Shown: positions 17,025-56,962 of the stretch, in pieces
Layout: each line of letters opens with the position of its first letter
How positions within the stretch are numbered: the first letter of the stretch is position 1
Origin: Bacteroidaceae bacterium
Lineage (GTDB): Bacteria > Bacteroidota > Bacteroidia > Bacteroidales > Bacteroidaceae
DNA length: 63,946 nucleotides
NCBI GenBank assembly: GCA_024398665.1
Contig: JAKSIS010000011.1
Location: forward strand, 1-63,946
Direction: 5' to 3'
The notes under the pieces: generated by a model
Told to the model about the DNA's origin: nothing
What the model saw: the letters and a program-made list of their open reading frames with translations, nothing else
Databases searched by the model: none
Made by a program: the position numbers and the translations under genes

Positions 17025-17045
17025 TTACAAACCAATAACAGAATC

Positions 17046-18320: not shown

Positions 18321-18343
18321 CTCCTGACTTTAGCAAATTGATG

Positions 18344-27126: not shown

Positions 27127-27159
27127 GCTCTATTGTTATTAATATGGTTATTGATATGG

Positions 27160-28506
27160 TTATTCGAATGAAAGCCAGTCAACCTGGACATTGCCCTTGG
27201 AAGCCATGCGGACCTTGAGGTGATGTATACCGGTACCGGCACCCTTCACATCGGCAACGACTTCACTTGCATCGCTCTTTCCGCTTATCTTCACCTTTGA
27301 AATGACCTTGTCATCCTGAAGGATCTCAAGTGTTCCGGCTGACGGGGTGACGACCTTTACCTTGACTCTCTTGGGGGCCTTGGCAAAGTTCACGGTGTTG
27401 TACTTCACCCATGAACCCGGCTCATAGAATACGGTCTTCCAGCCGGCAAAGTAGTTGTCGGTGTCAAGATATGCAATGGAATCACCGCTCTGGGCAATTT
27501 CTGAATAGCGGTCAATCTGGATCTGGGTATCGGATTCAGTTACGCCTATGCCGCGCAGTGTGGGCTTGACCATGCGTATGCTTCCGTCGGGTTCAAAGAA
27601 GATTGAGTCAGCACAGACAGCACGGTTCTTGTCGAATTCAGGCGAATAGTCGTTGTGATGGTAGAACAGATAGGTCTGGCCCTTGAATTCGATGATTGAG
27701 TGGTGGTTGGTCCAGCACTTGTTCTCATGCTCTTCAAAGAACACGCCCATGAACTTGTAGGGGCCGAAAATGTTGTCAGCCATGCAGTATGCCAGAACTT
27801 CCTCAACGTTGCGTGCCCAGGGGAATGTCATGTAGTACTTGCCGTTGTGCTTGAACAGATACGGACCCTCAACAAGACCCTTGGTGGGAACTTCCTCAAC
27901 ACGGTGACGGTCTGCGGGGTCAGTCGATACTGACAGCCAGTCGTCATTCATCTTGGTGATGGTGATACCCGGCATTACCAGATAGCCGGTGCCGTCATCA
28001 TCGACAAAGATACAGGGATCAATGCCGCCTACACCCTCAAGAGGAGTGGGCTGCGGGATGTACGGACCCTGGGGATTGTGTGCAATTGCAACACCTACGC
28101 GGTTGCCGCCCATGCTGCGGCGTCCATCGGCGGTCTGCATTGCCCTGGCACCTGCCGGCCAGAAGAAATAGTAACTGCCGTTGTGTTCCTTGCAGTCAGG
28201 AGCCCACATTGAATAGCCCTTTTCATTTACCCAGGGAGCGGTCCACTGGTCAACTATTACGCCGTGGTCTTTCCAGTCAGTGAGGTTCTTTGATGAAAAC
28301 ACATGATAGTCTGCCATGCAGAACCAGTCCTTGCGGCCATACTCTGCGGGAGCCTTGATGTCATGTGAAGGGAATACGTACACTTCATCGCCCACGACAA
28401 GTGCGGACGGATCAGCCGAAAACTGGTCACGGATGATAGGGTTCTGTGCGGTTGCCAGTGTTGCAGTCATAGCAACTGCCATCACAGTCAGGATTCTTGT
28501 TTTCAT
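27160..28506 (-). CDS. Secreted GH43 with C-terminal CBM6
   Basis: 448 residues with a signal peptide (cleavage after ATAQ, residue 21). The catalytic Asp base is in FSADPSALV near residue 32, the pKa-tuning Asp in VGGIDPCIF near residue 160, and the general acid Glu in GLVEGPYLF near residue 213. From about residue 345 the sequence turns into a CBM6-like jelly roll (IAYLDTDNYFAGWKTVFYEPGSWV, then HLKVRMASKGNVQVDW at the end), expected to bind xylan chains. The GH43-CBM6 pairing is typical of arabinofuranosidases or xylanases acting on arabinoxylan. It sits between GH30 (26 bp gap) and another GH43 (33 bp gap), one transcript. Confidence 0.92.
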   Translation of the reverse strand: MKTRILTVMAVAMTATLATAQNPIIRDQFSADPSALVVGDEVYVFPSHDIKAPAEYGRKDWFCMADYHVFSSKNLTDWKDHGVIVDQWTAPWVNEKGYSMWAPDCKEHNGSYYFFWPAGARAMQTADGRRSMGGNRVGVAIAHNPQGPYIPQPTPLEGVGGIDPCIFVDDDGTGYLVMPGITITKMNDDWLSVSTDPADRHRVEEVPTKGLVEGPYLFKHNGKYYMTFPWARNVEEVLAYCMADNIFGPYKFMGVFFEEHENKCWTNHHSIIEFKGQTYLFYHHNDYSPEFDKNRAVCADSIFFEPDGSIRMVKPTLRGIGVTESDTQIQIDRYSEIAQSGDSIAYLDTDNYFAGWKTVFYEPGSWVKYNTVNFAKAPKRVKVKVVTPSAGTLEILQDDKVISKVKISGKSDASEVVADVKGAGTGIHHLKVRMASKGNVQVDWLSFE

Positions 28507-31046: not shown

Positions 31047-31071
31047 AAGCGTCAATTGATGGTTCAAATTT

Positions 31072-40950: not shown

Positions 40951-43900
40951 TTAGAGGTTGATCTTGAGGCCGAATGAGAAGCTGGGTGTCTGAGGAGCAA
41001 GACCGCGGTCAATGCCCATCATGTAAGCGTTGTTACCGGCTGAGAATTCAGGATCGGAACCAAGATATTTGCTGAGAGTAGCAATGTTGTTGGCAGCACC
41101 CCATATGGTAAGACCCTGCAGATAAGTGTTCACAATAGGAATCTTATAGCTGAGTGTCACATTCTTTAAACGCAGGTATGAACCGTCTTCAATCCAGCGG
41201 TCTGAGAAGCGTGAATTGCCGTGCGGGTCTTCATAGATAATCTTAGGCATGCTGGTCTGCTGACCTTCGCATGTCCAGTGGTTGGTGACTGCCACAGTCT
41301 GGTTCATGAAACGTGAACCGCTTTCAAGAAGCATTCTCTGGTAGTTGTAGATGTCACCGCCCAGTGAATAGGTCAGAGTGGCACTCAGGGTCAGGTTCCT
41401 GACACTGACGTTTGTGAAGATACGTCCGTACAGGTCGGGGTTCGGGTCACCGATCTGAACCATATCCTTCTCATTGATGATATCGTCATTATTCTGGTCA
41501 ATGAACTTCATGTCACCGGCTTCGAAGAAAGTCTTCTGCTGGGTGTCGGACAGCATATAATGTCCGTCAGCGTCAGCGTCAGCGGTAGTGGCGTATACAC
41601 CGTCGGTCTGATAGCCCCAGAACACGCCGATAGGACCGCCTACAGCAGTTCTGATGGTAGCGCCGTAGAGAGATGTCTCAATGGTCTTGTCATTGTCAGG
41701 AAGCTTGGTGATTTCAGTCACATACTTGCCTGCCGATGCGCCCAGTTCCCACTTGACCATGTCAGTGTTGAGAACCTTGCCGGTCAGGGTTGCACTGAAG
41801 CCGGTATTTGACAGAGAACCGCCGTTGCTCCATGTGTTGGAAAGACCTGTACGATATGACAGGGCACTGATTGAAAGAAGGTTGTCAGTGTTGCTCTTGA
41901 AGAAGTCTGCAGCAAGTCTTACACGGTTGTCGGCAAGTGAAAGGTCAATGCCTGCGGTCAGCTTCTTGACACTCTCCCACTGCAGTGAGCTGTTACCGAT
42001 ATTGGCAATTGCGGTACCGCTCATCTGGAGGATCTTCACGGGTGAGAAGTAAGTCTTTGATGCTGAATCGTCAAAACCGTCGTTACCGGTAATGTCAAAG
42101 CCTGCGCTGACCTTCAGGTAGTTCACAAAGTCCGTATTGAACCATGATTCGTTTGAAGCTACCCATGCACCCTGAACTGACGGGAACAGACCCCAAGGCA
42201 CCTTGAACATTGTGACACCGTTGGAAACGTTGCCGCCGAACCTTGAAGATGCAGAAATACCCAGACCTGCGCTCAGGTAGTACTTTTCCATGTAGTTATA
42301 GTTGCCCTGGCCATACCATGTGATGGATATGTCCTGAGTATCAATACCGTCAGTGGCCTTGTACTTGAGTGAAGTAGTCATGTTCGGGGTCTTGTCATTA
42401 CCTGAATTGTAACCTATCATTGCAGTCTGGTAGAGTGCATTGTTCAGATAGCGGACACCGGCTGTCAAATTCACGTCATGTGCCTTGAAGCGCTTTGCAA
42501 ATTCCATGTAGGTGTCGCTCATGAAGCCGTCCTGCTTTGAATTCATTGCAGAAGCCTTGTTCTCAACCTTGCCTACGCCCTCAATGTCAAATGTGGGAGA
42601 ACCGGTGATAGGAATGTAGTAGTTCTCATCAGAATTGATCAGAGTGTAGCAGAAGTGCTCATTGAGTGAGAGACGGGGAGTGATGTCCCACTTGGGGGTA
42701 ACTGCAAGTGTGATGAGACGGTTGCCGAAATAGTTCTTGTTTATACCGTCACCGTTCTCAAGGATTGACAGGGGGTTTGAAAGTGAAACCTCATCGCCAA
42801 GTACCTCATCAAGATAGTCGTCTGCTCCTGCAAGATAGCTTGAAAGCTGGCCAGAATAAGCATATTCATAAGGGCTCAGGAACGGAGACTTGGCAAGTGC
42901 CAGGAATGTGGGTGCTGTGATCATGTTGTCATCGATGTTGTCAATGGCACCGTCATCACGCATGTCACGGGTAATGTCGCTGTAGCTGGCGTCGAAACGA
43001 AGAGTCAGCTTGTCGGACAGGATGATGTCCGAATTCAGTCTCAGGTTGAAACGTGAATAGTCACTTTCCTTGAGAATGGCGTCGCCCTTTGCATAACCTA
43101 CTGAAAGGGTATACTTGGCAATTTCATCACCACCGTCAACGTTCACGCTGTAGTTCTGCACGAAGGCGTTCCGGTAAGCGACATCAGTCCAGTCAGTATC
43201 ATTGTGATACTTGTTGTAGAAAGGATACTGCTTGTCAACTGACATGAACTTGAATGAATTCATCTTGGTACCGGTTGTTCCGAGAAGTTCAGATACATAG
43301 TTGCGGTACTGTGAAGCGTTCATCATTGCAGGGAACTTGGGCATCATCTGATACTCGCCTGACAGGGACACGTCAATTCTTGTAGCCATGCTGCGGTTGC
43401 GCTTGGTCTTGATGACTATCACACCGTTGGCACCCTTTGCACCGTATACGGCAAGACCGTTCTTCAGTACGGTAATTGATTCGACGTCATCAGGCATGAT
43501 GTTTGCCAATACGTTGTTGTAGAAACCGTCATGCATTGAAAGGCGGTCATAGCCCATATCAAGGATCACACCGTCAAGAACAACCAGAGGCTGGGTGTTG
43601 ATGTTCAGTGAATTGATACCGTCAATGATGGAAAGGTTGCCTACGCCCAGCTGGCTGGAACGTGAAATTGACAGGATATCACCCATGAGACCTTTCTGGA
43701 TCTGGTTGTCAATGCTGATGTCAGAATTGAGCATGGAGGTACCGGCCGATTTCTGGGTACTTGCAACTGTCTTGGCCTGATAGGTCTCGCTGAATGCGTC
43801 CGAATACATCTTGACATCAACGCCGTCAGTGCGGCCGTTGAGGGCGCATACTGTGGTGTTGCAGCCGTCAACAGTGAATGTCAGTGATGTGACATACTCA

Positions 43901-44148
43901 GGAAGCTTGATTGTATATGTACCGTCCTCCTTGGTCATGGCCGAATGTGAACGGTTGTTATATGCCTGCACACGGACACCCTGCATGGGAGTACCGAGAG
44001 CGGCATCAGTAACCTTACCGGTAATGACGGTACTGGCTTCATTGGAGCCACTCTGTGCGAATGTTGAAACGGGGAACAGAAGCATAAGGCCTATGGTTCC
44101 CAGGGCTTTTAACCCTTTCATGTTGTTTATTCTCATATTCTTAGGCAT
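40951..44148 (-). CDS. SusC/RagA TonB-dependent transporter (pair 2)
   Basis: 1065-residue outer-membrane beta barrel importing oligosaccharides with energy from TonB. After the signal peptide comes a carboxypeptidase regulatory-like domain (ITGKVTDAALGTPMQGVRVQAYN, about residues 42-64), then a plug with the SusC signature GAKGANGVIVIKTKR near residue 238. The barrel follows, with a DADADGHY and DQNNDDIINEKD acidic loop near residue 890 that may bind calcium, ending in the barrel strand SFGLKINL with its terminal aromatic/hydrophobic pattern. The start may be residue 1, 5 or 10. It has no STN domain, so it does not signal through an anti-sigma factor. Its stop is 12 bp from SusD, and a fasciclin lipoprotein precedes it by 5 bp. 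Confidence 0.94.
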   Translation of the reverse strand: MPKNMRINNMKGLKALGTIGLMLLFPVSTFAQSGSNEASTVITGKVTDAALGTPMQGVRVQAYNNRSHSAMTKEDGTYTIKLPEYVTSLTFTVDGCNTTVCALNGRTDGVDVKMYSDAFSETYQAKTVASTQKSAGTSMLNSDISIDNQIQKGLMGDILSISRSSQLGVGNLSIIDGINSLNINTQPLVVLDGVILDMGYDRLSMHDGFYNNVLANIMPDDVESITVLKNGLAVYGAKGANGVIVIKTKRNRSMATRIDVSLSGEYQMMPKFPAMMNASQYRNYVSELLGTTGTKMNSFKFMSVDKQYPFYNKYHNDTDWTDVAYRNAFVQNYSVNVDGGDEIAKYTLSVGYAKGDAILKESDYSRFNLRLNSDIILSDKLTLRFDASYSDITRDMRDDGAIDNIDDNMITAPTFLALAKSPFLSPYEYAYSGQLSSYLAGADDYLDEVLGDEVSLSNPLSILENGDGINKNYFGNRLITLAVTPKWDITPRLSLNEHFCYTLINSDENYYIPITGSPTFDIEGVGKVENKASAMNSKQDGFMSDTYMEFAKRFKAHDVNLTAGVRYLNNALYQTAMIGYNSGNDKTPNMTTSLKYKATDGIDTQDISITWYGQGNYNYMEKYYLSAGLGISASSRFGGNVSNGVTMFKVPWGLFPSVQGAWVASNESWFNTDFVNYLKVSAGFDITGNDGFDDSASKTYFSPVKILQMSGTAIANIGNSSLQWESVKKLTAGIDLSLADNRVRLAADFFKSNTDNLLSISALSYRTGLSNTWSNGGSLSNTGFSATLTGKVLNTDMVKWELGASAGKYVTEITKLPDNDKTIETSLYGATIRTAVGGPIGVFWGYQTDGVYATTADADADGHYMLSDTQQKTFFEAGDMKFIDQNNDDIINEKDMVQIGDPNPDLYGRIFTNVSVRNLTLSATLTYSLGGDIYNYQRMLLESGSRFMNQTVAVTNHWTCEGQQTSMPKIIYEDPHGNSRFSDRWIEDGSYLRLKNVTLSYKIPIVNTYLQGLTIWGAANNIATLSKYLGSDPEFSAGNNAYMMGIDRGLAPQTPSFSFGLKINL

Positions 44149-44153: not shown

Positions 44154-45821
44154 TTATTCAAGAATAGGTTCAAGAATAATGCAGTCAAGATTCATTGTGG
44201 TATTGTAGTTCTTGACCTCAGAACTCTTCATGGAGCACTTTATTCTGACAGAAAGCTTTGCCCTGTCTGTCTTGTAGTCGCAATAGGGAATCTCAATGTA
44301 GTCCCTGTCCATCTTCACGCTGTCCTTACCCTGGATGAGGATGGTGTCAACCTTACCTACTACATTGTTGAAAGTCAGATCACGATTCCTTGTGTCCTTG
44401 GGATCGAAAATGGCTGCATTGTTGTAGTAGATGGTCGGATGGATCTGGATGGGCTTCTTCGAGTCAGTGTTGGGAGCGATTACCATGTACACTTTGTACT
44501 TGCCCTTCAAGTTGTTCTTGACGGGAATGTCAATCTGCCATGAATATGCACCGCCTTCACCGGCAACCTGAAGGATTCTCTCACTTGAAATCTTTCCGTA
44601 ATCACCGTTACGCATTGACTTTGAGACAGGCTTGGTAAGGTTTGCCTTGTAGTCAGCGTTTTCACCTTCAACCTTGATGGGCCGGAGCCATGTCAGACTG
44701 TCGGCAAAAGGCCATGTGTTCACCTGGATGATGTATCCGTTACTGCACCTGATGGAATCAACACGATTCTTCACGAACAGGCCGTCGGCTGAATAGGGAG
44801 CATAGTAGGTGTGATATGCAATGGGGTCTGTCTGACGGCCGTAACGGTCAAATGTGGTCGAAATGGCTGAGTCAGCAAGACCGTGCTGGATGTTCATGTT
44901 GAAGAACATGTCAGTCATGATGGCGTTCTGGGTCCAGTACATCTTGATTGAGTCAGCGTACTCGATCCTTCCGTAATCGTAGAACTGTGAGATTCTGTCA
45001 TAAGCAGCCTGCCATGCTTCAGGAGTGGGAAGAACCATTGCAAAGTTGCTGTCCTCTTCATTGATGAGTCCGAAACGGTCCATGAGGATGCTCTTTGTGA
45101 TAAGCACAGAGTCAACGTACTCCATTTCACCATCAGCATTGATACCCTGCTGGACACTGCGGTTGGGGTCAACCTCCTCTTTTGTGTACTTGGCAAAGAA
45201 CTTGCCCAGGACATCAGTGTATGCGGGTTCAGTGGTGATGTACTCGTAAAGGCTCTTTCTGTACTCGATACGGCCGTTCAGGGTGTGAAGGATACCGTTG
45301 CGGCAGGCTATGTTCTTTTCCAGATAGTTCACGCCGTCAATTGAGTTTGCCGATGCAGTGTACATCTTCTTGCTGAGCATGTAGATCTTCTCGTCATCTC
45401 CGCCTGCAGGATGGCTGTAGCGGGCCAGATAGTTCTGGATGAACTCCTGACCGGTTATCTTATGATCCTGCGGGGTCTTTTCAGTGACATCCTTGAGGAA
45501 AATTTCCTTCAGTGAGTCAGGAAGAGCGTTTATGGCTTCATTGGAAGGAACCCAGACAGTCATGAACTGATCCTCGTCAAGGAACTCATAGTAACTTACG
45601 GTAAGCTGCTTGGCACCGTTGTACATGAAGGTATTCTGAAGAATCTTCACGAACTGACTGGCGTTGTCCAGCTTTGAGATTGTTTCCGCGAGAGATTCTC
45701 TCGGGACAACGGAGTAATCAGTAGAGTAGTGTTCATCCCATACGTCTGAGCACGAAGCGCAGAGGAGTACAGCAGAAGCTACCCAAACTGATTTCTTGAA
45801 TGAATTGAAATAGTTTTTCAT
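44154..45821 (-). CDS. Fasciclin-domain lipoprotein (555 aa)
   Basis: Envelope lipoprotein with the Cys in LCASCSDVWDEHY at residue 24 followed by acidic residues. FAS1 H1-type segment TVWVPSNEAINALP is near residue 89 and H2-type RNGILHTLNGRIEY near residue 174, so one full FAS1 domain is N-terminal. The C-terminal half (about 350-555) is a beta domain rich in Lys/Asp. It stands directly before SusC of pair 2 (5-bp gap) and after another fasciclin gene (21 bp), the slot where SusE/SusF-type surface glycan-binding proteins often occur. A glycan-binding or complex-assembly role is inference; FAS1 itself is clear from motifs. Confidence 0.8.
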   Translation of the reverse strand: MKNYFNSFKKSVWVASAVLLCASCSDVWDEHYSTDYSVVPRESLAETISKLDNASQFVKILQNTFMYNGAKQLTVSYYEFLDEDQFMTVWVPSNEAINALPDSLKEIFLKDVTEKTPQDHKITGQEFIQNYLARYSHPAGGDDEKIYMLSKKMYTASANSIDGVNYLEKNIACRNGILHTLNGRIEYRKSLYEYITTEPAYTDVLGKFFAKYTKEEVDPNRSVQQGINADGEMEYVDSVLITKSILMDRFGLINEEDSNFAMVLPTPEAWQAAYDRISQFYDYGRIEYADSIKMYWTQNAIMTDMFFNMNIQHGLADSAISTTFDRYGRQTDPIAYHTYYAPYSADGLFVKNRVDSIRCSNGYIIQVNTWPFADSLTWLRPIKVEGENADYKANLTKPVSKSMRNGDYGKISSERILQVAGEGGAYSWQIDIPVKNNLKGKYKVYMVIAPNTDSKKPIQIHPTIYYNNAAIFDPKDTRNRDLTFNNVVGKVDTILIQGKDSVKMDRDYIEIPYCDYKTDRAKLSVRIKCSMKSSEVKNYNTTMNLDCIILEPILE

Positions 45822-45842
45822 ATCTTTTGTTTATTAATACTC

Positions 45843-47870
45843 TTAATGCTTGTCTTCATTGAAGTCATAGATGCTCTTGGGGCACCACTCCATGTAGTCA
45901 AAGTTCATTTCAGCTTTCGGGTTGTCAAGAACCAGCTTCATTCTGAGGTAGTAGTCCTTGCCGGCATAGAAATAGTCAGTCGTGATGATACGTCTGGCCA
46001 TAGTGCTGAGCTTGCGGAATACGTCAGTACCATTTGAATGTGAGTCAGGACCCTTCATGTAGCCGCGGTTGTGCATGGCCTTGTCATGAGCCAGGATCTT
46101 TTCCTCATCACCGCCCAGTTCCTCACTGTCATCGGCAACCCAGCCTATGTTGTGGTTACCGTCAGCGCTGAGTCTGAGATCTGTGGGAATGCCGCAGGGC
46201 TGCAGGTTGTTGGGATCGTCTCCGACATAGTTCTGAACCACGCCGCAACCTTCATAACCACGGTATGAAAGCCTGAGTTCCCAAGTGCCGTCAAACGGTA
46301 CGGGAGGAAGCTTTACCATGATGTCATAGTTGCCCTGAAGGTCAAGACCGTCACCCTGATAACTCCAGTTTGCGGTACTTGCTACGCGCACCCACATAAT
46401 GTAGTCTTCATTGAATGAGTGGAAACGTTCAGGCTGTTTGAAACCCTTGCCGACGTAACCGCTTGAATTGGAAGCCTGGCGCGCACCTGATGTCATGAAG
46501 TCAGGTGACAGAGTGCAGCAGTCAATTCTCATACGACGGTTCAGGATATCTTCACGGACAAACTTGGAATAGACCAGCATGTTGTCAATGTAGTGGAAAT
46601 ATCCGTTGCATCCTTCTGAATCCACACCAGACATTTCTGAAGCGGTATAGACACGGATACCGGGTTCGAACGGACGGCCTAACTCAGGTTCATGTGAGCT
46701 GCCTATACCGCGGCGGTTGATATACACACCTGCGTCATCGCCGTTGCGGACTGTTGAGACGCGCATGATTGAATGCGGCATGAATGTCTCGAAATAGTCC
46801 TCGGGGTCAAGCAGGGACAGAATGCATCGGCTGTCAATAATATCGCGACGGATATTGAAATTGGAAGCAGATGGAACTGCGAACGGAAGTATATGGTATG
46901 ATATGAATCTGTTCAGCGGGTTCCTGCGGTCATGATAGTCGGTATCATATGCAGTACCGTCTGAAGGATATGATTCATGATATACCTGGTTTGCATACTC
47001 TATGAGGTCGTTCAGATTATTGATACCGTTCTTTCTCATGACGGAGTCCGGTTCAACCAGGACGGTGAAGTTGGTCTTCCTTTCACCCCAGTAGTAAACC
47101 GTGTAGTCCGAACCGCCACCCTGTCCGATGACGCCTTCGTAAACTGAGTCATAAGAAATTGTGTATGTTTCATCTTTCCACCTCTTCAGAGAATCTTCAA
47201 GTCCAACAAGATTCAAAGCAGCAAAGAAGATGCTTGAATTGCTGTTTTCCTTGAGAACGTCAAATACATATTCGCCAGCCACCTTGATGACACTGTCAAC
47301 GACCTGTACAACGCCGTTTTCAACGGTGTCGTCCAGTTCGATGATGTGTGTCGTCTTGTTGATGCAGTTCCTCAGTCTGTAATGGCCCTCTTCGTTGGCT
47401 GCGCTGTCATATGACAGTGACAGGAAACGGTCCAGAAGGTTTACAGAAGGCAGTGCACCCTCAACCATATCGGACATGAAGTACGTAGTCTTGATAAGGT
47501 GGGTCCATGCGATTGTATCGCAATCCTCCTTGGAAATGTCCTCAGCAGACACAATTGTTCTGCCCTCCTTTTCAGAGAGCTGGGCGTAGTGTGCTGCAAA
47601 TGCATCGTTGGTCGGTGCAAAGCAGGTAAATTCACCGTAGGTATCCAGTTCACCCCATGTCTGGGATTTCTGCAGAACCTTTATGAATTCAGAGAACCTT
47701 CCCTGTGGATCCTGTTCAAGGAAATCGGCCACGGTCTGTCCGGTGAAGGTATAGTATGTGCCGGGGTGCTGTTCGTCAAAACAGGACCCTAACAGCAGCA
47801 GCATACCTGCAACGGCTAAGATGGAGGCCAGCTTTCCTGATCTGTTATTATTTGTGTTCATTGTTCTCAA
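45843..47870 (-). CDS. Fasciclin-domain lipoprotein (675 aa)
   Basis: Envelope lipoprotein; signal peptide ends in LLGSCFDEQHPG with Cys near residue 30. FAS1 H1-type segment TCFAPTNDAFAAHY is near residue 80 and H2-type ENGVVQVVDSVI near residue 182. A second partial FAS1 module starts near residue 200. It is the locus-resident paralogue of the orphan at 18494 (678 residues), sharing opening (EQHPG-YYTF-G-TVADFL), motif positions and end (PKSIY). It lies between SusD of pair 1 (38 bp) and the 555-residue fasciclin gene. It could form part of the surface complex with either SusCD pair. Confidence 0.82.
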   Translation of the reverse strand: MRTMNTNNNRSGKLASILAVAGMLLLLGSCFDEQHPGTYYTFTGQTVADFLEQDPQGRFSEFIKVLQKSQTWGELDTYGEFTCFAPTNDAFAAHYAQLSEKEGRTIVSAEDISKEDCDTIAWTHLIKTTYFMSDMVEGALPSVNLLDRFLSLSYDSAANEEGHYRLRNCINKTTHIIELDDTVENGVVQVVDSVIKVAGEYVFDVLKENSNSSIFFAALNLVGLEDSLKRWKDETYTISYDSVYEGVIGQGGGSDYTVYYWGERKTNFTVLVEPDSVMRKNGINNLNDLIEYANQVYHESYPSDGTAYDTDYHDRRNPLNRFISYHILPFAVPSASNFNIRRDIIDSRCILSLLDPEDYFETFMPHSIMRVSTVRNGDDAGVYINRRGIGSSHEPELGRPFEPGIRVYTASEMSGVDSEGCNGYFHYIDNMLVYSKFVREDILNRRMRIDCCTLSPDFMTSGARQASNSSGYVGKGFKQPERFHSFNEDYIMWVRVASTANWSYQGDGLDLQGNYDIMVKLPPVPFDGTWELRLSYRGYEGCGVVQNYVGDDPNNLQPCGIPTDLRLSADGNHNIGWVADDSEELGGDEEKILAHDKAMHNRGYMKGPDSHSNGTDVFRKLSTMARRIITTDYFYAGKDYYLRMKLVLDNPKAEMNFDYMEWCPKSIYDFNEDKH

Positions 47871-47908
47871 TGTAAGTAGTTTCTTATATTTGGTAGAGTA
47901 TGAAACAG

Positions 47909-49618
47909 TTACTTTGCCTTCTCGATGAATTCGTCCTCAATGTAGGCAGGATTCTGATGAAGAAGAGTATTGATCTTTCTCTCATCCTTGCTGATCGGGA
48001 AGTAAAGGGCCAATGTATCGGCCAGCTTGATACGTACAGCACTTACGTTGTCAGTGTACTTTGTCAGGACAAATGTTGACAGACGTGTGGTGTTGCCGTC
48101 ACGACGTGCCATTCTGACAAGGTCAAACCAGCGCTTTCCTTCAAAGCACAGTTCGCGGCGACGCTCGTCAAGCACAAGTTCCTCCATCTTCTTGACTGAA
48201 CCGTTATAGTTCGAATACTTCAGTGTATCACCTACAGCAGTGGTGTACTGGTCAATGCAGAGAGCACGCTGGTTGACAACCTGAACATACTTGAATGCCT
48301 CACGGAACAGTGAATCCTGAGCGGCAGTTGCGCCATCACCCAGCTGGCCGGCCTTCATGACAAGAGCCTCGGCCTTCATGAGCAGAACCTCAGAGAAACG
48401 GTAGATGATCCAGTTGGGGATCTGTGAGTTTCTTGATTCACGTGAAAGGCTACCGGTCTGGAGTTCACCTGTTGAAAGGTTGTAGCGGACATCAAGGTTA
48501 ACATACTTTGAAATGGCGAAGTCACCGCCGTCATTGTCCTTGGTCATGCTCTCATAGAAACGTCCGTCGAACTTTGAGATGAACACCTTGTTGCTTCCCT
48601 GCTCGAAGTTGTTACCCATCTGGGGAGCTGCAAGCAGATTGCCCTTTGTGGTGTTACGGCTGCCGTAATAGGTGCTTACGAATGAATTCTCAACGCTCTG
48701 GTTGGCTTCAAATGCAAGTTCGAAAAGGACTTCGAATGAATTGCCTTCACCGAAATTCTCCTTATAGGCATTGCCGGCGGTGCTTGAACCAAGTGTGCTC
48801 TTGATCATGGGGATACCCTTGATCAGGTCAACAGTGCAGTCAGCGCCTTCCTTTTCCTTGAGTTCTTCATATTCCTTGGTCTTATACTCGATGATGAAGT
48901 CGCAGCATTCAATTGCCTTGTCCCAGTCACCGCGCCACAGGTACATGTCAGCAAGCATGGCGTAGATGGCCACCTTGGTGATACGGCCTGTGTTGGCCGA
49001 TTCGAGAGTGTACTTGTTCACTGCCCAGTCCTTGACTGAATCAAGGTCATTGATAAGATTTGTCAGAACCTCACCGAAAGGAGTGGCGGGAATGAAGAAG
49101 TTGTAGGTATCGTCAATTGAAGGATGCTCAACATAGGGAACGTCCTTGTATGCACGGATAAGATACCAGTAGCAGAGTGAACGCAGGGCAATGGCCTCGG
49201 CCTCATTTGAAGCAAGTTCGGCATTGGTGTAGTTCGGGTCAATGTCAGCAACCTGAGGTGCGAAATAAAGAACCGTGTTGGCCCTGTTGATCACATCATA
49301 GAAGCACTTCCATGAGGTGTAGCTGTTGGTTTCAAGAATGTTGTCCTTGGTGATCTGGATAATGTCGTTCGATGCGTTGCTTTCATTGGCAACGATGTTG
49401 TCGGAACGCATTTCGCCCCAGATTGACATACGGGTGATGCAGTCAGATTTTTCAAGTGCGTTGTATGCGCCAAGAAGAACGCTCTCAACGTCGGACTTGT
49501 CTGTCCAGAAGTTCTCAAGAACGATTTCGTTCAGAGGCATCAGCGTCAGGAAATCCTTGCAGGATGTCAGGGAAAGTCCGGCAAGCGCTATGCAGATGAT
49601 TGATTTTATATTTTTCAT
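47909..49618 (-). CDS. SusD/RagB family glycan-binding lipoprotein (pair 1)
   Basis: 569 residues, the typical family length. The lipobox LTSCKDFLTL places the Cys at residue 20. The SusD N-terminal pattern ENFWTDKSDVESVLLGAYNAL near residue 35, the TPR-like helices (ALRSLCYWYLIRAYKDVPYV near residue 144) and the C-terminal LDERRRELCFEGKRWFDLVRM (near residue 480) are all canonical. It pairs with SusC at 49638 (19-bp gap). Of the two SusDs this is the more conventional, so it is the better candidate for the main xylo-oligosaccharide binder. Confidence 0.95.
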   Translation of the reverse strand: MKNIKSIICIALAGLSLTSCKDFLTLMPLNEIVLENFWTDKSDVESVLLGAYNALEKSDCITRMSIWGEMRSDNIVANESNASNDIIQITKDNILETNSYTSWKCFYDVINRANTVLYFAPQVADIDPNYTNAELASNEAEAIALRSLCYWYLIRAYKDVPYVEHPSIDDTYNFFIPATPFGEVLTNLINDLDSVKDWAVNKYTLESANTGRITKVAIYAMLADMYLWRGDWDKAIECCDFIIEYKTKEYEELKEKEGADCTVDLIKGIPMIKSTLGSSTAGNAYKENFGEGNSFEVLFELAFEANQSVENSFVSTYYGSRNTTKGNLLAAPQMGNNFEQGSNKVFISKFDGRFYESMTKDNDGGDFAISKYVNLDVRYNLSTGELQTGSLSRESRNSQIPNWIIYRFSEVLLMKAEALVMKAGQLGDGATAAQDSLFREAFKYVQVVNQRALCIDQYTTAVGDTLKYSNYNGSVKKMEELVLDERRRELCFEGKRWFDLVRMARRDGNTTRLSTFVLTKYTDNVSAVRIKLADTLALYFPISKDERKINTLLHQNPAYIEDEFIEKAK

Positions 49619-49637
49619 ACCAATACGCTTTTATTGA

Positions 49638-52600
49638 TTAGAACGATACTGAAACACCAAGTGTGAATGACTTTGAACGAGGTGTCTGTGAGTTGTCAGC
49701 TGCAACCTGGCCACGGCCGCCTGAAACTTCAGGATCAAGACCTGTGTACTTGGTCCAGCGTAATACGTTGCTCAGGTTGAAGTTAAAGCTTACGCCACTG
49801 AGACCCAGAGGCTTGGTGTACTTCTGGTCAAGTGAGTAGTTCAGAGCTGTATGGTTCCAGCGGACGAATGAACCGTCCTCAACGTAGCGGTCACTGCCAA
49901 GATAGTTGTAACCGTAGTTGTGGAGTGCGCGCGGCATGATGGTTTCATCACCCTCGACACGCCAGCGCCAGTTGATGGCTGCCGATGTGTTGTCAGTGTT
50001 GTACATGCACTCAGCGTTCATACGTGACTTGTTGACGATTCTGTTACCCCAGCGGAAGTTGAACTGGTTGTTCCATGAAAGACGTCCGAACTGCAGACGC
50101 ATACCGAAACCACCGTTCAGCTTGGGCAGTGATGAACCCAGATAAACAATGTCAAGTTCGTTGATGTTACCGTCATGGTTGATGTCCTCATAAATGGCAT
50201 CACCGCCCACGAATTCATATTCGTTGGTTGTGCCGTAAGCGAACATCATGGGTTTTGCACGACCCTTCTGGTTCAGGATGACGGCACCGTTCTCATCCTT
50301 TACGACAGGTGCGTTGGGACCGCTTACACCGGGTATTTCCTCTTCACTGTAGTCACTGTACTGGTAAACGCCGTTGTACTTGAATCCGTAGATTGAACCG
50401 AATGCGTTGTTCAGGGCTACATATGAAAGGTAAGAACCGTTTCTGTAGTCGAAGTCCGAATTCATCTTGTCAAGAATGGTGGGGTTCATTTCCAGAATCA
50501 CGTTGGTGTTGTCTGCAAATGAAACGTTTCCGTTTATGCTCCACTTCTTTCCGAACAGTTCACCTGATGCTATGCGGTTGCAGTTCAACTGAAGTTCCCA
50601 ACCGGCATTCTTCATTGAACCGTCGTTCACGACGTCAAGTGATGTGAAACCTGATGATGTGGGGATTGAGTAACCGCTCTGCAGCATCTTTTCTGTAACA
50701 CGTGAATACAGGTCAATGTCAGCACCCAGTTTGTCGTGGAACAGGCTGAAATTGAAGCCCAAGTTCCATGATGTGGTCTCTTCCCACTGCATTGTGCTGA
50801 GCCTGATGTTGGCAGGATAGATGGTCGATGTGCCCAGATATGCGTCACCGCTGGTGTAACGGCTGTAGAACAGACCGTCGCTACCGGGGGTGTTACCTGT
50901 GATACCCCAGCTGGCACGGATACCCATCATTGTTATGTAACCTGCATCGCGAAGAGCGTCGAACCACTTTTCGTCACTGACGTTCCAACGTCCTGACAGA
51001 GCGGGGAAGGTACCCCAGCGCTTGGCGTCACCGAAACGGGTGCTGCCGTCCGAACGGGTGGTCAGGTCAAGTGAATACTTTCCTTGGTAGGAATAGTGTG
51101 CAGAGAATGTGACGTTCATGCTGCGGTTGCGGTTGGCGCTTGTGCTGATGCTGCTGATATTGCCGTCAAGAGCAGTTGACTTGAATGTACCTGAAGGCAG
51201 ACCGTTTACGGTTGCGTTCTGGCTCTTGCTGTTGCTTGTATCCAGCTGGAAACGGACCATGGACATGAATGAGTGGCCCGGCTTGTTGAAGTGCGGCTGG
51301 AACGTGAGAGTGTGGTTTGTACCAACTTGCGAACTCTTGCTTGAGCTTGTCGTAGCCTGGTTTGCAGAACTTGAAGACCAGCCGTCAGTAACAAGGCTGA
51401 CAGGATTGAATCCGTCATTGCCGCTGTTCTGGACACTGAAGTTGACACGTGCGTCATAAGTCAGTTTGGTCTGATTGTTCTCAAGACCCAGAAGGTTGTA
51501 AACCAGTGAGAAGTCAGGCTGTACGCTCAGTGATGTGCTGTACTGTTCCTTTTCGTCAGCTGTTGCAAGCGGGTTGGTGTTTCTGGGGAGTTCGCTTGAT
51601 GCTGAAGCCAGCATGTGGTAGTACTCTCCGGTTGAATTTCCGTTTTCGTCCTCGTAGTAGATAGCCAGGTTAGGCATCATCTTCATGGCGGTACCGATAG
51701 CGGTCGAATTCTGCTTGTTCTTCGAATAGGTCATTGCGAAGTTGGTGGTAACCTTGATTCGGTCTGATACGAAGTAGTCGAATGCGACACGGGTTGTGAA
51801 ACGGTTCATCTTCTGACCGATGACAGAACCAGTCTGGTTATCGAAACCGGCTGAAATACGGAAGTTGGCCTTTTCACCACCACCGGATACTGAAACGTTG
51901 TGTGACTGCTGGATACCAAGCTGCTTGACAGCTGCCACCCAGTCAGTGTTGTCGTTATACATTTCATATTCTGAGAATGACGGATCATAGTTGAGTTCTA
52001 TGATGTCCGATGCGGCATCGCTCAGATGGGGGTTGAAGAATGACTCCTTCATGAACATGGTGTACTGGTCACCGTTCAGCAGCTTGTAGCCGAGAGGCTG
52101 CCAGGTACCGTTCATCCTGTATGAGTAGCTTACACGTGTCTTACCGCGTGTACCGCGCTTGGTCTTGATTTCCATGACACCGTTTGAACCGCGGGCACCC
52201 CAGATGGCTGTTGCAGCGGCATCCTTGAGGATTGAAATGCTCTGGATATCTTCAGGGTTGATGTTAAGGAGCTCAGATACCTTCTCTTCATTCTGTGAGT
52301 CGTTCTGGTAGTCGAAGTTGTTCCTCAGGTTGGCTTCAACTTCAAAGATGTTACCGTCAACGACAATCAGCGGGTTGGCATCACCTGTCATGGTTGCGAC
52401 ACCACGAAGGTGCATGGTTGAACGTGCACCAAGGTTACCTGAATCGAACACGATGTCAAGACCTGAGAAACGGCCCTGGATAGCTTCATCAAGAGTTGTG
52501 ATTCCAAGTCCTTCAAATTCCTTCATATCGATTGTCTGGATAGCTGAAGGGTTCTCACGCTCAGGAATCTGAAGACCAGAACCGCCTACCACGCGGTCAG

Positions 52601-52958
52601 CTACGATATCGACCACGTCAATGTCATTGGTCATTTCCTTGAGCTTGATTTCGAAATATGTCTTGTTGAAAGGAATGTCAACCGTTTCGTAACCCACGTA
52701 GGTGACCTGCAGTCTGTCCTTCGGGTTGACAAGACGGAATGAGAACTGTCCTTCCATATCGGTTACGTCATGAGCCATGATACGGCCGGTGGCGTCAACC
52801 TCAACTACGTTTACCATCATCATCGGGCCCTCGCTGTCTTCAATGACACCACTGATGACATCGCCGGCTTTCTGAGCGAAAAGCAAACCAGGCAGGGAAG
52901 CCAGAGCAAGAACTGAGGCTCCTCTCATAAGTTTATTCATTATCTTTTCCATTGTCAT
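49638..52958 (-). CDS. SusC/RagA TonB-dependent transporter (pair 1)
   Basis: 1106-residue outer-membrane transporter. The signal peptide (core MRGASVLALASLPGLLFAQ, ending at about residue 29) is followed by a carboxypeptidase regulatory-like domain (VISGVIEDSEGPMMMVNVVEV) with the FSFRLVNPKDRLQVTYVGYE turn. A plug with WGARGSNGVMEIKTKRG near residue 252 carries the SusC signature. The barrel ends with SFTLGVSVSF. Possible starts are residue 1, 3 or 7. SusD lies 19 bp downstream and the 983-residue fasciclin gene 12 bp upstream. No STN domain is present. The two SusCs are only moderately similar by eye, so they may take different oligosaccharides. Confidence 0.95.
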   Translation of the reverse strand: MTMEKIMNKLMRGASVLALASLPGLLFAQKAGDVISGVIEDSEGPMMMVNVVEVDATGRIMAHDVTDMEGQFSFRLVNPKDRLQVTYVGYETVDIPFNKTYFEIKLKEMTNDIDVVDIVADRVVGGSGLQIPERENPSAIQTIDMKEFEGLGITTLDEAIQGRFSGLDIVFDSGNLGARSTMHLRGVATMTGDANPLIVVDGNIFEVEANLRNNFDYQNDSQNEEKVSELLNINPEDIQSISILKDAAATAIWGARGSNGVMEIKTKRGTRGKTRVSYSYRMNGTWQPLGYKLLNGDQYTMFMKESFFNPHLSDAASDIIELNYDPSFSEYEMYNDNTDWVAAVKQLGIQQSHNVSVSGGGEKANFRISAGFDNQTGSVIGQKMNRFTTRVAFDYFVSDRIKVTTNFAMTYSKNKQNSTAIGTAMKMMPNLAIYYEDENGNSTGEYYHMLASASSELPRNTNPLATADEKEQYSTSLSVQPDFSLVYNLLGLENNQTKLTYDARVNFSVQNSGNDGFNPVSLVTDGWSSSSANQATTSSSKSSQVGTNHTLTFQPHFNKPGHSFMSMVRFQLDTSNSKSQNATVNGLPSGTFKSTALDGNISSISTSANRNRSMNVTFSAHYSYQGKYSLDLTTRSDGSTRFGDAKRWGTFPALSGRWNVSDEKWFDALRDAGYITMMGIRASWGITGNTPGSDGLFYSRYTSGDAYLGTSTIYPANIRLSTMQWEETTSWNLGFNFSLFHDKLGADIDLYSRVTEKMLQSGYSIPTSSGFTSLDVVNDGSMKNAGWELQLNCNRIASGELFGKKWSINGNVSFADNTNVILEMNPTILDKMNSDFDYRNGSYLSYVALNNAFGSIYGFKYNGVYQYSDYSEEEIPGVSGPNAPVVKDENGAVILNQKGRAKPMMFAYGTTNEYEFVGGDAIYEDINHDGNINELDIVYLGSSLPKLNGGFGMRLQFGRLSWNNQFNFRWGNRIVNKSRMNAECMYNTDNTSAAINWRWRVEGDETIMPRALHNYGYNYLGSDRYVEDGSFVRWNHTALNYSLDQKYTKPLGLSGVSFNFNLSNVLRWTKYTGLDPEVSGGRGQVAADNSQTPRSKSFTLGVSVSF

Positions 52959-52970
52959 GTAATTTGCTGA

Positions 52971-55922
52971 TTAGAAAATGACTTCGCCGTTGCACAGCGG
53001 ACCGTCAATCTGATGGATCACCACATATGATGAAGTCTCAATCTGTGTAGCGCTGCTGGCGTTGGCATTGTTATACTCATACTCACGGCACATGATGTTA
53101 TACAACGGCAGTCCTGCAGCATTTGTTTTCTTCTGGACTGTTCTGGTGTGCCTGCGGTCCTTGTCAGTTACTATCACGTCGGTACCGCCCTTGATGGTCA
53201 GCTTTTCAAACTGCTGCTTTCCGTTCATGAAAGCGGTTTCGTAGTTGGCCTCACCTGCGGGGTTCTCACGCAGATCCACATTGAATTCTGCATTCACATA
53301 GACTGAATTATCCTGGATATGATACTTCACGAAGTCTGTGAGACGAAGCTTGAGGGCATCAGTGTAGGCTGTGCATGTGAAGTTCTCCCTCTTCACGATC
53401 TTGGTGGTATCATAGTCAGTGGGAAGTGCTGCACGATACTCGGTGTAAAGGTCATCCATCTTGGTTTCCCAGACTTCTTCAGAAAGTACATCGGCAAGTG
53501 AGTCATACTCATTTTCAAGAGCATCGATCATTTCAGGTGAATAGAGGACCTTTGCGTCGAGAAGAGCCTGAACTGACTCGTTGGTGGGAACGTACAGAGT
53601 GTAGTGGTAAGTGTTGAATGTTGAAACATTGAACTGGCTTCCTACAGCATGACCGTTTGAACGGTTTGTGAACAGACGGGCTGCGCTTGTACCGGATCCT
53701 TCCATCAGGTCAAAGAACAGACCGAAGTTGTCAATGTATGCTGAATCGGAAAGGATGTCATAAACAGACTTTCTTGATGTCTGAAGCGGCTTGTCAATGA
53801 CATATGTCCTACCGTTACCCTTTGTTGAACTGTTCTTTGAAAGGTCATGGCGGTTAAGGATCTTGACATCGTCAACAAGTCCGGGATACATGATGGGAGA
53901 CTCCAGCTGGTAGCCACCGGCAACCTTGCTTGAAGAAGGATCACTTATGTCACCGGAGAAGTCGAAGTAGATGGTACCGCGACCCTTTGTCTTGTAGTAC
54001 TTGTATGAAGGATTGGCTTCAACATCACCTATTATAATATGGTAGTCGAGCAGGTCCTCGAGACGGTCGCGGATCTGGTCTGAAGAAGCGCTGGTACCGG
54101 TACCTGTTGTGATTACCGTATTGGTTGAATCGTTGTAGTCGAAGATTCTGGCTTCAACGGCCTTTGATGAATTGTTGTAGTTGAACACAAGGGCCTTCAG
54201 ATGACCGGCGTTATCAGCTCTGTTGCCGAATGAAACGGGGTCAATATAGATCATTCTGCCTTCCAGCTTGGGATCATCGGAAGATGTTACGGCAGGAACG
54301 AAGAAGCTGTATGTTGCAACCATAGAATTAAGGTATGCGTCAAAGTCATATTCGTTGATGGCCCAGTCGATTATCTTCAGGCTCTCTGTAACGAGAACAG
54401 GATAAGATACCGAACGGTAAGCTGTAGGACTGAACACCTTTGTGGTGAAGTAGATGGCACCGTTGCAGCACATCTGAACGCTCTGTACGTCATCAGGCTG
54501 GATGCCCATCTTGTCATTTGCGTCATCAAGGACATTGTCGAACTTGCTGGGAACTGAACCGACCAGTGAATTGAGCATGTTCACGTTGACAAGCTTGCTG
54601 ATAACCTCATCGGGAACGCTGTCCATATCCTGAATGACTTCATCAATATTGACGGGATCCCTGTGAAGGGTGCTGTATCTTTCACGCAGGGCCTTGCCGC
54701 CGGTGTTAACCCACCAGTCCATGAGAACAGTGTCCAGAGGAACGAGTATTACACCCATGTTCTGCTGGAGAGCCACATCGGCAGTGGTGGTTGAAGATGT
54801 AGAAGAATAATAGGTGTTCCAACCCGGGTCAAACTTGAGAAGGTTGCCCTTTGCAACGTTTGCACGACCGGGGGTCTGTGAATTGGAAACGTTACCGGCA
54901 GTACGCTGTGAGAAGAAGCGCATCTGGAACAGGGTGTCCTGATCAAGGTCGAATCCGGGAATGTCAAGCAGCAGCTTGTGTTCCTGAACATTCTTGATGA
55001 AAGTGGCCCTGATGTCACCGTCCTGTACAGGATAAGGTGCGCAATAGCGGTTCAGGATAGAACTGAAGATTCTTGCATTCTCAGCTTCATTTATAAATTC
55101 AGCCATGTTGGGAAGAGAATAGATTACATCTTCCATTACATGCAGGAAGCCGTTGAAGCACTTCTTGTTCTGGATAAGGATCTTTACACCGTTCACGGTG
55201 GCGTCACCGGGCTGGTGTGAAGGCTTGCCGAACTTGGGACCCTGGTTGAAGAGGAAATCATAGTCTTCATCAGTGATCTTCTTTGCGGTGAGGAACTTGT
55301 TGACGAAGAATACGATAGGCCTCTTGGTAGCGTCCTGGAAAATTGGAATTGACTTGCCCGAGTTCTTGTAGAACTTCCACTGCTTGGTTTCAGGCATGTC
55401 TGACGGATTGAGAACTGTCAGAGAGTCATAGATTGAAGCTGATGAGATTCTTCTCATGCAGTCACCCAGAACAGGGCCCTCGCTGCTTGACAGCATGGCA
55501 ACCTGATAAACGTTGTTGAGCATTGAACCGTTGAGGATCATCTTCTTCTGAGCAAGAGACAGGTCATCATAGGTTACGGTACCGCCGTTGCCTGCGTTCT
55601 TGAACACTCCGCTGTTGAGGAATCTTTCAAATGCCTCATCGTCAGCAACGAACAGCGTCTTACTACCGGTCTTGGCAAGCACATTCTTGTAGTCAAGATC
55701 ATCGATTAGTCTCACATAGTTGTCAAAATGGTAAGTCTTACCATTCTCATCCGTGATACCCTCCTGAAGGGTCTCATAGATACTGGAACCGAGCCACTCC
55801 GGGAACCTGGTGTCAAGGTCGTAATCCGGTGTACATGAAGAAACACCGAATGCGGCCAAGGCTGAAAGGCATACCAGTCCGCAAATGTGGGAACGGTTCT
55901 TTCGTGAATTGATTTGTTTCAT
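52971..55922 (-). CDS. Large multi-fasciclin lipoprotein (983 aa)
   Basis: Envelope lipoprotein whose Cys is near residue 30 (VSSCTPDYDLDTRF, acidic residues following). FAS1-type segments recur: TLFVADDEAFERFL near 88, CFNGFLHVMEDVIYSL near 260, YTLYVPTNESVQALLDA near 790, and ISKLVNVNMLNSLVG near 440, which suggest three or four FAS1 units. The total length is well above a single- or double-FAS1 protein. It is the second gene of the locus (29 bp after GH43 and 12 bp before SusC) and precedes pair 1 as a SusE/F-like element would follow it. A role in substrate capture or in holding the complex together is inference. Confidence 0.78.
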   Translation of the reverse strand: MKQINSRKNRSHICGLVCLSALAAFGVSSCTPDYDLDTRFPEWLGSSIYETLQEGITDENGKTYHFDNYVRLIDDLDYKNVLAKTGSKTLFVADDEAFERFLNSGVFKNAGNGGTVTYDDLSLAQKKMILNGSMLNNVYQVAMLSSSEGPVLGDCMRRISSASIYDSLTVLNPSDMPETKQWKFYKNSGKSIPIFQDATKRPIVFFVNKFLTAKKITDEDYDFLFNQGPKFGKPSHQPGDATVNGVKILIQNKKCFNGFLHVMEDVIYSLPNMAEFINEAENARIFSSILNRYCAPYPVQDGDIRATFIKNVQEHKLLLDIPGFDLDQDTLFQMRFFSQRTAGNVSNSQTPGRANVAKGNLLKFDPGWNTYYSSTSSTTTADVALQQNMGVILVPLDTVLMDWWVNTGGKALRERYSTLHRDPVNIDEVIQDMDSVPDEVISKLVNVNMLNSLVGSVPSKFDNVLDDANDKMGIQPDDVQSVQMCCNGAIYFTTKVFSPTAYRSVSYPVLVTESLKIIDWAINEYDFDAYLNSMVATYSFFVPAVTSSDDPKLEGRMIYIDPVSFGNRADNAGHLKALVFNYNNSSKAVEARIFDYNDSTNTVITTGTGTSASSDQIRDRLEDLLDYHIIIGDVEANPSYKYYKTKGRGTIYFDFSGDISDPSSSKVAGGYQLESPIMYPGLVDDVKILNRHDLSKNSSTKGNGRTYVIDKPLQTSRKSVYDILSDSAYIDNFGLFFDLMEGSGTSAARLFTNRSNGHAVGSQFNVSTFNTYHYTLYVPTNESVQALLDAKVLYSPEMIDALENEYDSLADVLSEEVWETKMDDLYTEYRAALPTDYDTTKIVKRENFTCTAYTDALKLRLTDFVKYHIQDNSVYVNAEFNVDLRENPAGEANYETAFMNGKQQFEKLTIKGGTDVIVTDKDRRHTRTVQKKTNAAGLPLYNIMCREYEYNNANASSATQIETSSYVVIHQIDGPLCNGEVIF

Positions 55923-55951: not shown

Positions 55952-56962
55952 TCATTTTGAAGCATTCTCCTGGTCCAGACCTTCAATGGTCTTTATATGG
56001 CCTTCTGCATCATACTCAAGTTCACATACCTTGAGGCTGCGGAGCCATGACTTGCCGCCTGAAGGCACGCTGTCATGATGGAAGAGATACCACTTGCCTT
56101 TGTATTCGACAATTGAATGATGTGTTGTCCAGCCTACCACCGGAGTAAGGATTACGCCCTGATAGGTGAACGGGCCGTAAGGATTGTCACCTATTGCATA
56201 GCACAGCAGGTGAGTGTCACCGGTGGAATATGAGAAATAGTATTTTCCGTTGTATTTGTGAACCCATGTTGCTTCGAAGAAACGGTGCGGGTCATCGGCT
56301 GTAAGGGGCTTGCCCTGAGCGTCAACCACAACTACCGGCTTGGGTTCTTCAGCATACTGGAGCATGTCACCTGAAAGGCGCACGACACGGCTGGGCAGAG
56401 CCGGCTGCTTTCCGCTTGGGAGAAGCTTGCTGTCCGGTGTGTTGTTGACTGCCGGATCCTCAATGCCGATGTTGTCGCGGTAGCACTGGAGCTGACCACC
56501 CCAAAGACCGCCGAAATACATGTAATAGCTGCCGTCCTCATCCTTGAGAACAGCCATGTCAATGCTGTAGCTGCCATGGATAGGTTCCGGTTCCGGAATG
56601 AAAGGACCTGCAGGATTGTCAGCGATTGCAACGCCCTGACGGAATACGTCATTCTTGTCCTTCATGGGGAAGTACATGTAATACTTGCCGTCCTTTTCTG
56701 CGACGTCACAGTCCCAGAGCTGGCGTCCTGCCCAAGGAATGTCTTCAAGGCCGAGAACCTTGCCGTGGTCGATGACTTCTCCGTTCATGACGTCATCGGT
56801 GGACAGAACGTGATAGTCCTTCATCACATACTGGTCGCCATTGTCGTTTTCGACGTTTTCGCATTCCCAATCATGCGAAGGGTAGATGTAAACCCTGCCG
56901 TTGAACACATGGACAGAAGGATCTGCCATGTAATCTTTGGGGAACAAATAGCGTTTCTTCAT
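55952..56962 (-). CDS. Cytoplasmic-type GH43 (beta-xylosidase-like)
   Basis: 336 residues with no signal peptide, so probably cytoplasmic (or periplasmic only by another route). The catalytic Asp base is in YMADPSVHVFNG (residue about 13), a second Asp in SIDMAVLKDEDG near residue 134 and the general acid Glu in RFFEATWVHKYNGKYY near residue 230. A His in VVGWTTHHSIVEY near residue 285 is the usual propeller-centre residue. The layout fits GH43_1-type xylosidases that finish imported xylo-oligosaccharides. It is the first gene of the locus, 57 nt from the candidate promoter box. Confidence 0.92.
   Translation of the reverse strand: MKKRYLFPKDYMADPSVHVFNGRVYIYPSHDWECENVENDNGDQYVMKDYHVLSTDDVMNGEVIDHGKVLGLEDIPWAGRQLWDCDVAEKDGKYYMYFPMKDKNDVFRQGVAIADNPAGPFIPEPEPIHGSYSIDMAVLKDEDGSYYMYFGGLWGGQLQCYRDNIGIEDPAVNNTPDSKLLPSGKQPALPSRVVRLSGDMLQYAEEPKPVVVVDAQGKPLTADDPHRFFEATWVHKYNGKYYFSYSTGDTHLLCYAIGDNPYGPFTYQGVILTPVVGWTTHHSIVEYKGKWYLFHHDSVPSGGKSWLRSLKVCELEYDAEGHIKTIEGLDQENASK

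Follow-up and report, generated by a model that had tools for sequence, protein, structure and literature searches.

Our analysis of a 63,946-nucleotide stretch of DNA from a member of the Bacteroidaceae (the window, hereafter) indicates that three lipoproteins carrying fasciclin (FAS1) domains and two SusCD transporters are inherited as one unit—and that this unit probably works as a two-transporter uptake machine, in which FAS1 proteins, through a suggested surface exposure, glycan binding and physical association with the transporters, would replace the SusE/F-type proteins. Glycan import by SusCD systems characterizes the Bacteroidota of gut and rumen, and the role of the accessory surface lipoproteins of these systems is still being worked out. 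The three lipoproteins, of 983, 675 and 555 amino acids, are termed here F983, F675 and F555, respectively.

The seven genes of the module lie on the - strand, in a run that is transcribed in the order GH43, F983, SusC1, SusD1, F675, F555, SusC2 and SusD2, with intergenic gaps of 5-38 bp. F983 (52971..55922), the first module gene, stands before SusC1 (49638..52958), a TonB-dependent outer membrane transporter of 1106 amino acids (TIGR04056, 622.7 bits against a cut-off of 368), and SusD1 (47909..49618), a lid lipoprotein of 569 amino acids (Pfam SusD_RagB, 91 bits; SusD-like_3, 47.1 bits). The pair formed by F675 (45843..47870) and F555 (44154..45821) is found directly downstream of SusD1 and is followed by SusC2 (40951..44148), a second TonB-dependent outer membrane transporter, of 1065 amino acids (TIGR04056, 529.2 bits against the cut-off of 368). 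The last gene encodes SusD2 (39028..40938), a divergent SusD of 636 amino acids with a lipoprotein-type N-terminus; both of its Pfam scores are below the cut-off (SusD-like_3, 18.2 bits; SusD_RagB, 14.7 bits), and SusD-type genes occupy the same place in other complete modules. The length of F675 is counted from a TTG codon, and an ATG occurs three codons further on. With SusC/SusD pairs and carbohydrate-active enzymes side by side, the window locus has the composition by which a PUL is recognized. A previous reading made from this DNA without database searches (the sequence-only reading) had placed the three lipoprotein genes correctly and on the right strand (44154-45821, 45843-47870 and 52971-55922), and the association with a double SusCD locus that it proposed is borne out and constant across related loci. 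The SusE/F position that it assigned to them holds for F675 and F555, both downstream of a SusD, and does not hold for F983, which is upstream of SusC1; instead of three genes flanking both SusC/D pairs, moreover, we observed a seven-gene block with nothing of FAS1 type after SusD2.

The FAS1 segments that had been claimed for the three lipoproteins were recovered by a profile search with Pfam PF02469 (Fasciclin), which scored F555 at 25.5 bits, F675 at 58.8 bits and F983 at 38.3 bits—all above the cut-off of 22 bits. At E 0.001, Fasciclin was also matched by all 62 members of the F675 family (one of them a stand-alone copy from the window), by 55 of the 71 members of the F555 family, the other 16 falling below that level, and by 44/44 scanned members of the F983 family, of 82 available. 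When the family profiles were compared with solved structures, periostin and TGFBI came first for all three, the E values against periostin being 5.7e-14 for F555, 1.3e-30 for F675 and 2.7e-14 for F983. As judged from these sequence profiles, all three lipoproteins are FAS1 proteins. The motifs quoted in the sequence-only reading were found in part: NG-x-x-H is present in all three proteins, and CFAPTN in F675 alone; a D or N three residues past the H of NG-x-x-H occurs in F675 and F555, whereas F983 has an E there. No Pfam family besides Fasciclin was detected at E 0.001 in the scanned members of the three families—neither those that SusE and SusF have of their own nor any known glycan-binding family—and the sole extra Pfam match of the window proteins, to DUF494, was below its cut-off.

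Domain boundaries were drawn with a FAS1 profile that was seeded with the first domain of F675 and that of F555 and then iterated within the families; it is thus trained on these same families, and it gave 0/615 matches at i-E <0.01 among controls consisting of 118 SusC, 77 SusD, 210 reversed and 210 shuffled sequences. By this profile, F675 and F555 would contain two FAS1 domains each, and F983 two or three, perhaps four. The F675 domains, FAS1-1 (residues 45-197, 47280..47738; Pfam 58-195) and FAS1-2 (residues 201-435, 46566..47270), were predicted in 62/62 members, and are followed by a C-terminal region (residues 436-675, 45846..46565) without a known family; Fasciclin was the sole Pfam family in the 62 members at E 0.001, and a profile of the C-terminal region matched the F675 family alone among 953 locus proteins. 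F555 shares this plan, with FAS1-1 (residues 42-190, 45252..45698; Pfam 79-182) and FAS1-2 (residues 191-369, 44715..45251) both predicted in up to 71/71 members, and a C-terminal region (residues 370-555, 44157..44714) that likewise has no known family, Fasciclin being the sole Pfam family in the 71 members at E 0.001. Homology between the C-terminal region of F675 and that of F555 was considered and not found (profile-profile probability, 4.2%). In F983, the profile predicted FAS1-1 at residues 46-272 (55107..55787) in up to 77/77 members, a weaker FAS1-2 at residues 274-496 (54435..55103) in up to 60/77 members, with an i-E of 0.077 in the window protein itself, and a last FAS1 domain at residues 718-979 (52986..53771; best Pfam stretch 767-814), covered across most of its length in 74 to 77 of the 77 members. 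The intervening residues 497-717 (53772..54434) have no detected family, and the iterated profile found no FAS1 domain in them; the spacing of motifs, judged by eye in the alignment, suggests that they may form a fourth one. All of these segments are encoded on the - strand.

The N-termini of F983, F675 and F555 display a signal-like stretch that ends at a Cys and is followed by acidic residues, and 68/76, 50/62 and 55/71 members of the respective families have a loose LxxC-type box. The acidic residues after the Cys, which the sequence-only reading had pointed out, proved to be a property of the families, with means of 1.74-2.13 such residues at +2 to +7 in the FAS1 families against 1.35 in SusD1. 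These signals are consistent with exposure of the three lipoproteins on the cell surface.

To the end of the contig or of the fetched stretch, the order F983-SusC1-SusD1-F675-F555-SusC2-SusD2, on one strand, is kept in 80/80 related loci. These are the best 80 of 167 relatives from species genomes scanned with the F983 family; F983 is present in all of them by selection, since the loci were found through it, and the order of the remaining module genes was not selected for. The succession F983-SusC-SusD-F675-F555-SusC was read in 57 loci and the identical order without F675 in 13, and ten loci end early—in one of these (L133), F555 comes straight after SusD, again without F675. Altogether, F675 is missing in 14/80 loci (13 of the 70 that reach SusC2, plus L133), and this absence after SusD1 suggests that it is dispensable or supplied elsewhere in these cases. 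An apparent absence of F983 in four loci (L110, L112, L113 and L115) was discarded: a longer antisense ORF covers the gene, the F983 frame is open, and the profile count recovered it. The 80 loci come from assemblies titled Bacteroidaceae, Prevotella, Prevotellaceae, Bacteroidales or Bacteroides, many of them obtained from herbivore rumen, hindgut or faeces, and one is from Candidatus Colenecus caballi. Across 151 sampled genomes of the family, F983 was detected in 98 (E 1e-20) and F675 in 99 (E 1e-8); 95 genomes have both, 7 have a single one of the two and 49 have neither. We also examined a chosen set of 27 F675 loci from other genera of the family; the seven high-ranking ones (L191-L197) all lie in modules, and the 20 lower-ranking ones comprise 12 in modules, three of which carry two or three F675 copies, and 8 that stand alone.

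Beyond the family, F983 was identified in 5/246 other genomes of the phylum (E 1e-10), and matches of high score were likewise confined to five genomes for F555 (129-142 bits, next best 45) and for F675 (126-163 bits, next best 93); the F675 profile had weaker matches in 48 more phylum genomes, which fell over the FAS1 part among the matches listed. The five are the same genomes for F983, F555 and F675, come from two families of the class other than the Bacteroidaceae, and each contain all seven genes of the module in unchanged order, at an F983 identity to the window protein of 20-22%. A sixth genome (L183) has a shorter plan, FAS1-SusC-SusD-FAS1-SusC-SusD. In a set of 28 modules with all seven genes, in which the end of the stretch clips F983 of L197, L292 and probably L280, the distance matrices of the seven genes agreed at r 0.89-0.97, with mean protein distances of 0.51-0.71. 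Moreover, two modules were read in each of four genomes, and 56/56 gene comparisons there placed a gene nearer to the module of another genome than to the second module of its own; therefore, the module was duplicated and inherited largely as a block, with the nearest other module differing between genes in several cases.

Conserved order and matched divergence together show that the module is inherited, and probably also functions, as a unit; they do not imply a physical complex. The question arises whether the FAS1 genes could be passengers, functionally uncoupled from the rest of a block that is inherited or mobile. Any co-inherited block would show correlated divergence too, and the patchy occurrence of the module outside the family may reflect block transfer; yet the order persists at the low F983 identity and the mean protein distances given above, while flanking genes differ, and F983 and F675 occur together in well over half of the sampled family genomes—a combination that makes mere passengers highly improbable.

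We further asked how FAS1 genes relate to SusCD in general. Within the stretches read around 40 further FAS1 genes from the phylum sample—part of a longer match list, with some of the stretches shortened by contig ends and with profiles that may miss distant SusD—35 loci were without SusC and SusD, one had SusC only, one had SusD only and three had both; among 20 shifted control regions, SusC was found in one. A general FAS1-SusCD link, which would be based on SusC or SusD in 5/40 FAS1 loci vs 1/20 controls, was thus rejected, and the predominance of loci without either indicates that the link is a property of the F983, F675 and F555 families. This distinction matters for an alternative role of the FAS1 lipoproteins, i.e., as general adhesins to plant fibre or host mucus that are merely co-regulated with the PUL and have no direct part in uptake. 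FAS1 is known above all for adhesion or ligand interaction, as presented in a review of the domain (PMC6032426), attachment to fibre would suit a fibre degrader of the rumen or hindgut, and stand-alone F675 copies do occur away from SusCD. These three families, however, are held in a fixed order with two SusCD pairs, as the great majority of the other FAS1 genes are not, and they diverge in step with those pairs; we accordingly regard a role confined to adhesion as unlikely.

The surroundings of the module in the window point to xylan. A GH43 beta-xylosidase-like enzyme is encoded just upstream in the same gene run (55952..56962, - strand), 29 bp from F983, and its best PDB match is the beta-xylosidase 4mlg (E 6.2e-155). 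On the same strand are two further GH43 enzymes with GH43-CBM6 and GH43-GH43_C2 architectures (25498..28506; Pfam) and a GH30 glucuronoxylanase-like enzyme with InlB-type repeats (28533..31067; Pfam), the PDB matches of which include GH30 xylanases and the glucuronoxylanase XynC (best E, 3.4e-64). A second locus, on the + strand (15480..20530), consists of a xylulokinase-like gene (XylB, 319 bits, below the cut-off of 380), a GH8 gene whose product resembles reducing-end exo-oligoxylanases (Rex exo-oligoxylanase, E 4.5e-75) and a stand-alone F675 paralogue of 678 amino acids (18494-20530, + strand; Fasciclin, 65.4 bits). Two further genomes of the genus (L187 and L189) carry the same trio, and two from a second genus (L282 and L283) have GH8 next to F675; in a non-random sample of 16 stand-alone F675 loci, five, including that of the window, have GH8 alongside.

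Enzymes near other modules of the family (42 ORFs) include GH43, GH115, GH98, GH67, GH10 and esterases, and GH43 and CBM6 reappear in the flanks of one paralogous module group (44 ORFs), whereas the flanks of another (40 ORFs) offer few glycan-related families other than GH2-type domains. Neighbours in the five distant genomes (58 ORFs) are mixed, e.g., GH2, GH92, GH28, rhamnogalacturonase-type enzymes and GH115. The tallies refer to chosen ORFs sampled from longer lists, save a few from the module loci themselves, and cover 25 listed families out of 99 for the distant genomes, 79 for the family modules, and 74 and 65 for the two paralogous groups, respectively. Xylan as a universal substrate is not supported by these mixed distant flanks. 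Because the distant modules adjoin mixed enzymes, xylan is best regarded as a local feature, not established as the defining substrate; and, given that one paralogous group has little for glycans nearby, a glycan substrate is not proven for each module. The xylan setting assumed in the sequence-only reading is therefore upheld for the enzymes around the module in the window, and not as a defining feature of the module.

The stand-alone F675 genes also bear on the possibility that the FAS1 lipoproteins are structural or assembly partners, which would clamp the two SusCD pairs or aid their insertion without binding glycan. Such a role is compatible with the finding that each module read to its end encodes two SusCD pairs, which co-diverge with the lipoproteins, and with Fasciclin as the sole Pfam family at E 0.001, i.e., with no known glycan-binding family. 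Even so, F675 occurs alone beside GH8 and xylan enzymes with no SusCD nearby, so glycan binding fits better than clamping, and it is absent from 13/70 loci that reach SusC2; we hold a purely structural function to be rather improbable.

F983, F675 and F555, in our view, most likely act at the cell surface as glycan-binding or docking subunits of a SusCD machine with two transporters, a model for which the levan and dextran utilisomes, described as assemblies in which SusC-held lipoproteins catch and process glycan (PMC7618045), served as the template. The three lipoproteins would be located on the outer leaflet, where their FAS1 domains could hold long glucuronoarabinoxylan chains close to surface enzymes; the resulting fragments would then be passed on to the two SusD lids, and labour might be divided between the two transporters. 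A more specific version, in which the FAS1 lipoproteins join the two different SusCD transporters as a hetero-assembly and one glucuronoarabinoxylan chain on FAS1 arms feeds two lids with differing preferences, is possible and put forward only tentatively. Part of this version is that the module would be the only SusCD import system of the cell in some members of the genus. Three SusC matches exceed the model cut-off in the window genome (assembly 84% complete), and the module accounts for two of these. Across 37 genus genomes, the assemblies of which are partly incomplete, we counted 165 SusC matches at E 1e-90, ranging from 0 to 14 per genome, and F983 was present in 35. Three of these genomes (G020, G021 and G022) have just two SusC genes at E 1e-90, and F983 in each case: both SusC places adjoin F983 in G020 and G022, and in G021 at least one SusC lies by F983 among the matches listed, with a complete module read directly (L311). 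A further genome, G023, has zero SusC at E 1e-90 and is without F983. A genus with so few strong SusC genes may offer a simple natural setting for studying how the module feeds the cell.

If FAS1 lipoproteins are fixed partners of a double SusCD module, the F983 gene of which occurs in 98/151 sampled family genomes, a widespread class of fibre importers has gone largely unstudied, and FAS1 gains a role beyond classical adhesion. The sequence-only reading had called this use of FAS1 little described, which agrees with the accessible text of the open-access literature: among the papers listed there, none was found to describe FAS1 lipoproteins as partners of SusCD, and the one earlier trace is a figure legend on a Gramella PUL of cellulose/hemicellulose type, which names a FAS1 domain protein together with SusD (PMC4891872). 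Neither a double SusCD module nor a role for FAS1 is described in the accessible text of that paper. A SusCD link is also absent from the bacterial section of the FAS1 review (PMC6032426), as is FAS1 as a word from the main text of the utilisome paper (PMC7618045).

The module can be compared with several known systems. Like the levan and dextran utilisomes of Bacteroides thetaiotaomicron, it encodes a SusC barrel, a SusD lid and extra surface lipoproteins together, one of the latter being a glycan-binding protein in the utilisome account (PMC7618045). The utilisomes described there have a single type of SusCD, with one glycan-binding protein and one glycanase at the surface, whereas the module combines two distinct SusCD pairs with three FAS1 lipoproteins, without a glycanase between them. 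Periostin and TGFBI, the best solved-structure relatives by profile, resemble the module proteins in their tandem FAS1 domains and differ from these lipoproteins in being animal extracellular proteins; prokaryotic FAS1 proteins are typically single-domain, according to the review text (PMC6032426). The Sus starch system shares with the module a pair of lipoproteins encoded right after SusD—SusE and SusF there, F675 and F555 here—and differs from it in that the module proteins match Fasciclin and not the SusE/SusF Pfam families, and in that F983 precedes SusC. In the Xus xylan system of Prevotella (xusA-E), the SusC/SusD pairs are contiguous, and one unknown gene and then a GH10 gene come after them. 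The module is thus like Xus in having two SusC/SusD pairs in a xylan setting in rumen Bacteroidota, and departs from the tandem arrangement by which Xus is defined in carrying F675 and F555 between the pairs and F983 before them.

Copy number within the seven-gene module (F983-SusC1-SusD1-F675-F555-SusC2-SusD2) varies at F675, one of its three FAS1-domain lipoproteins, which stands in two or three tandem copies between SusD1 and F555 at three of the loci read from other genomes (L279, L280 and L292). A homologue of F675 is also retained singly in G023, a 96% complete genome of the same genus as the window, despite the finding there of zero SusC matches at E 1e-90 and of no F983. In the window itself, a stand-alone F675 paralogue (18494-20530) shares its gene run with a xylulokinase-like gene and a GH8 exo-oligoxylanase-like gene, a trio that is also present in L187 and L189.

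Adjoining the xylan genes of the window is a protein (21123-23708) whose domains are of the lamin-tail, Fn3-associated and CotH kinase types, and a relative of it occurs near the module in L185. These xylan genes include a GH30 glucuronoxylanase-like enzyme (28533-31067) carrying several InlB-type B-repeats (Flg_new_2) C-terminal of its catalytic part. Beside the module of a distant genome (L179, 16146-19991), the adjoining genes look by eye like those for rhamnulokinase, rhamnose isomerase and a short-chain dehydrogenase, a reading that points tentatively to a pectic substrate at that locus.

Antisense reading frames of 921-939 aa are open across the F983 gene in L110, L112, L113 and L115, probably as an effect of codon use, and ORF calling based on length was misled by them.

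After SusD2, the last gene of the module, the window encodes two tandem secreted proteins with a Big_5 domain, of 1244 aa (31180-34914) and 1258 aa (35042-38818), and several other modules among the loci read are likewise followed by relatives of these genes. The two proteins are identical or nearly so over their N-terminal ~70 and C-terminal 45 residues, and their C-terminal end looks like a type IX secretion sorting signal.
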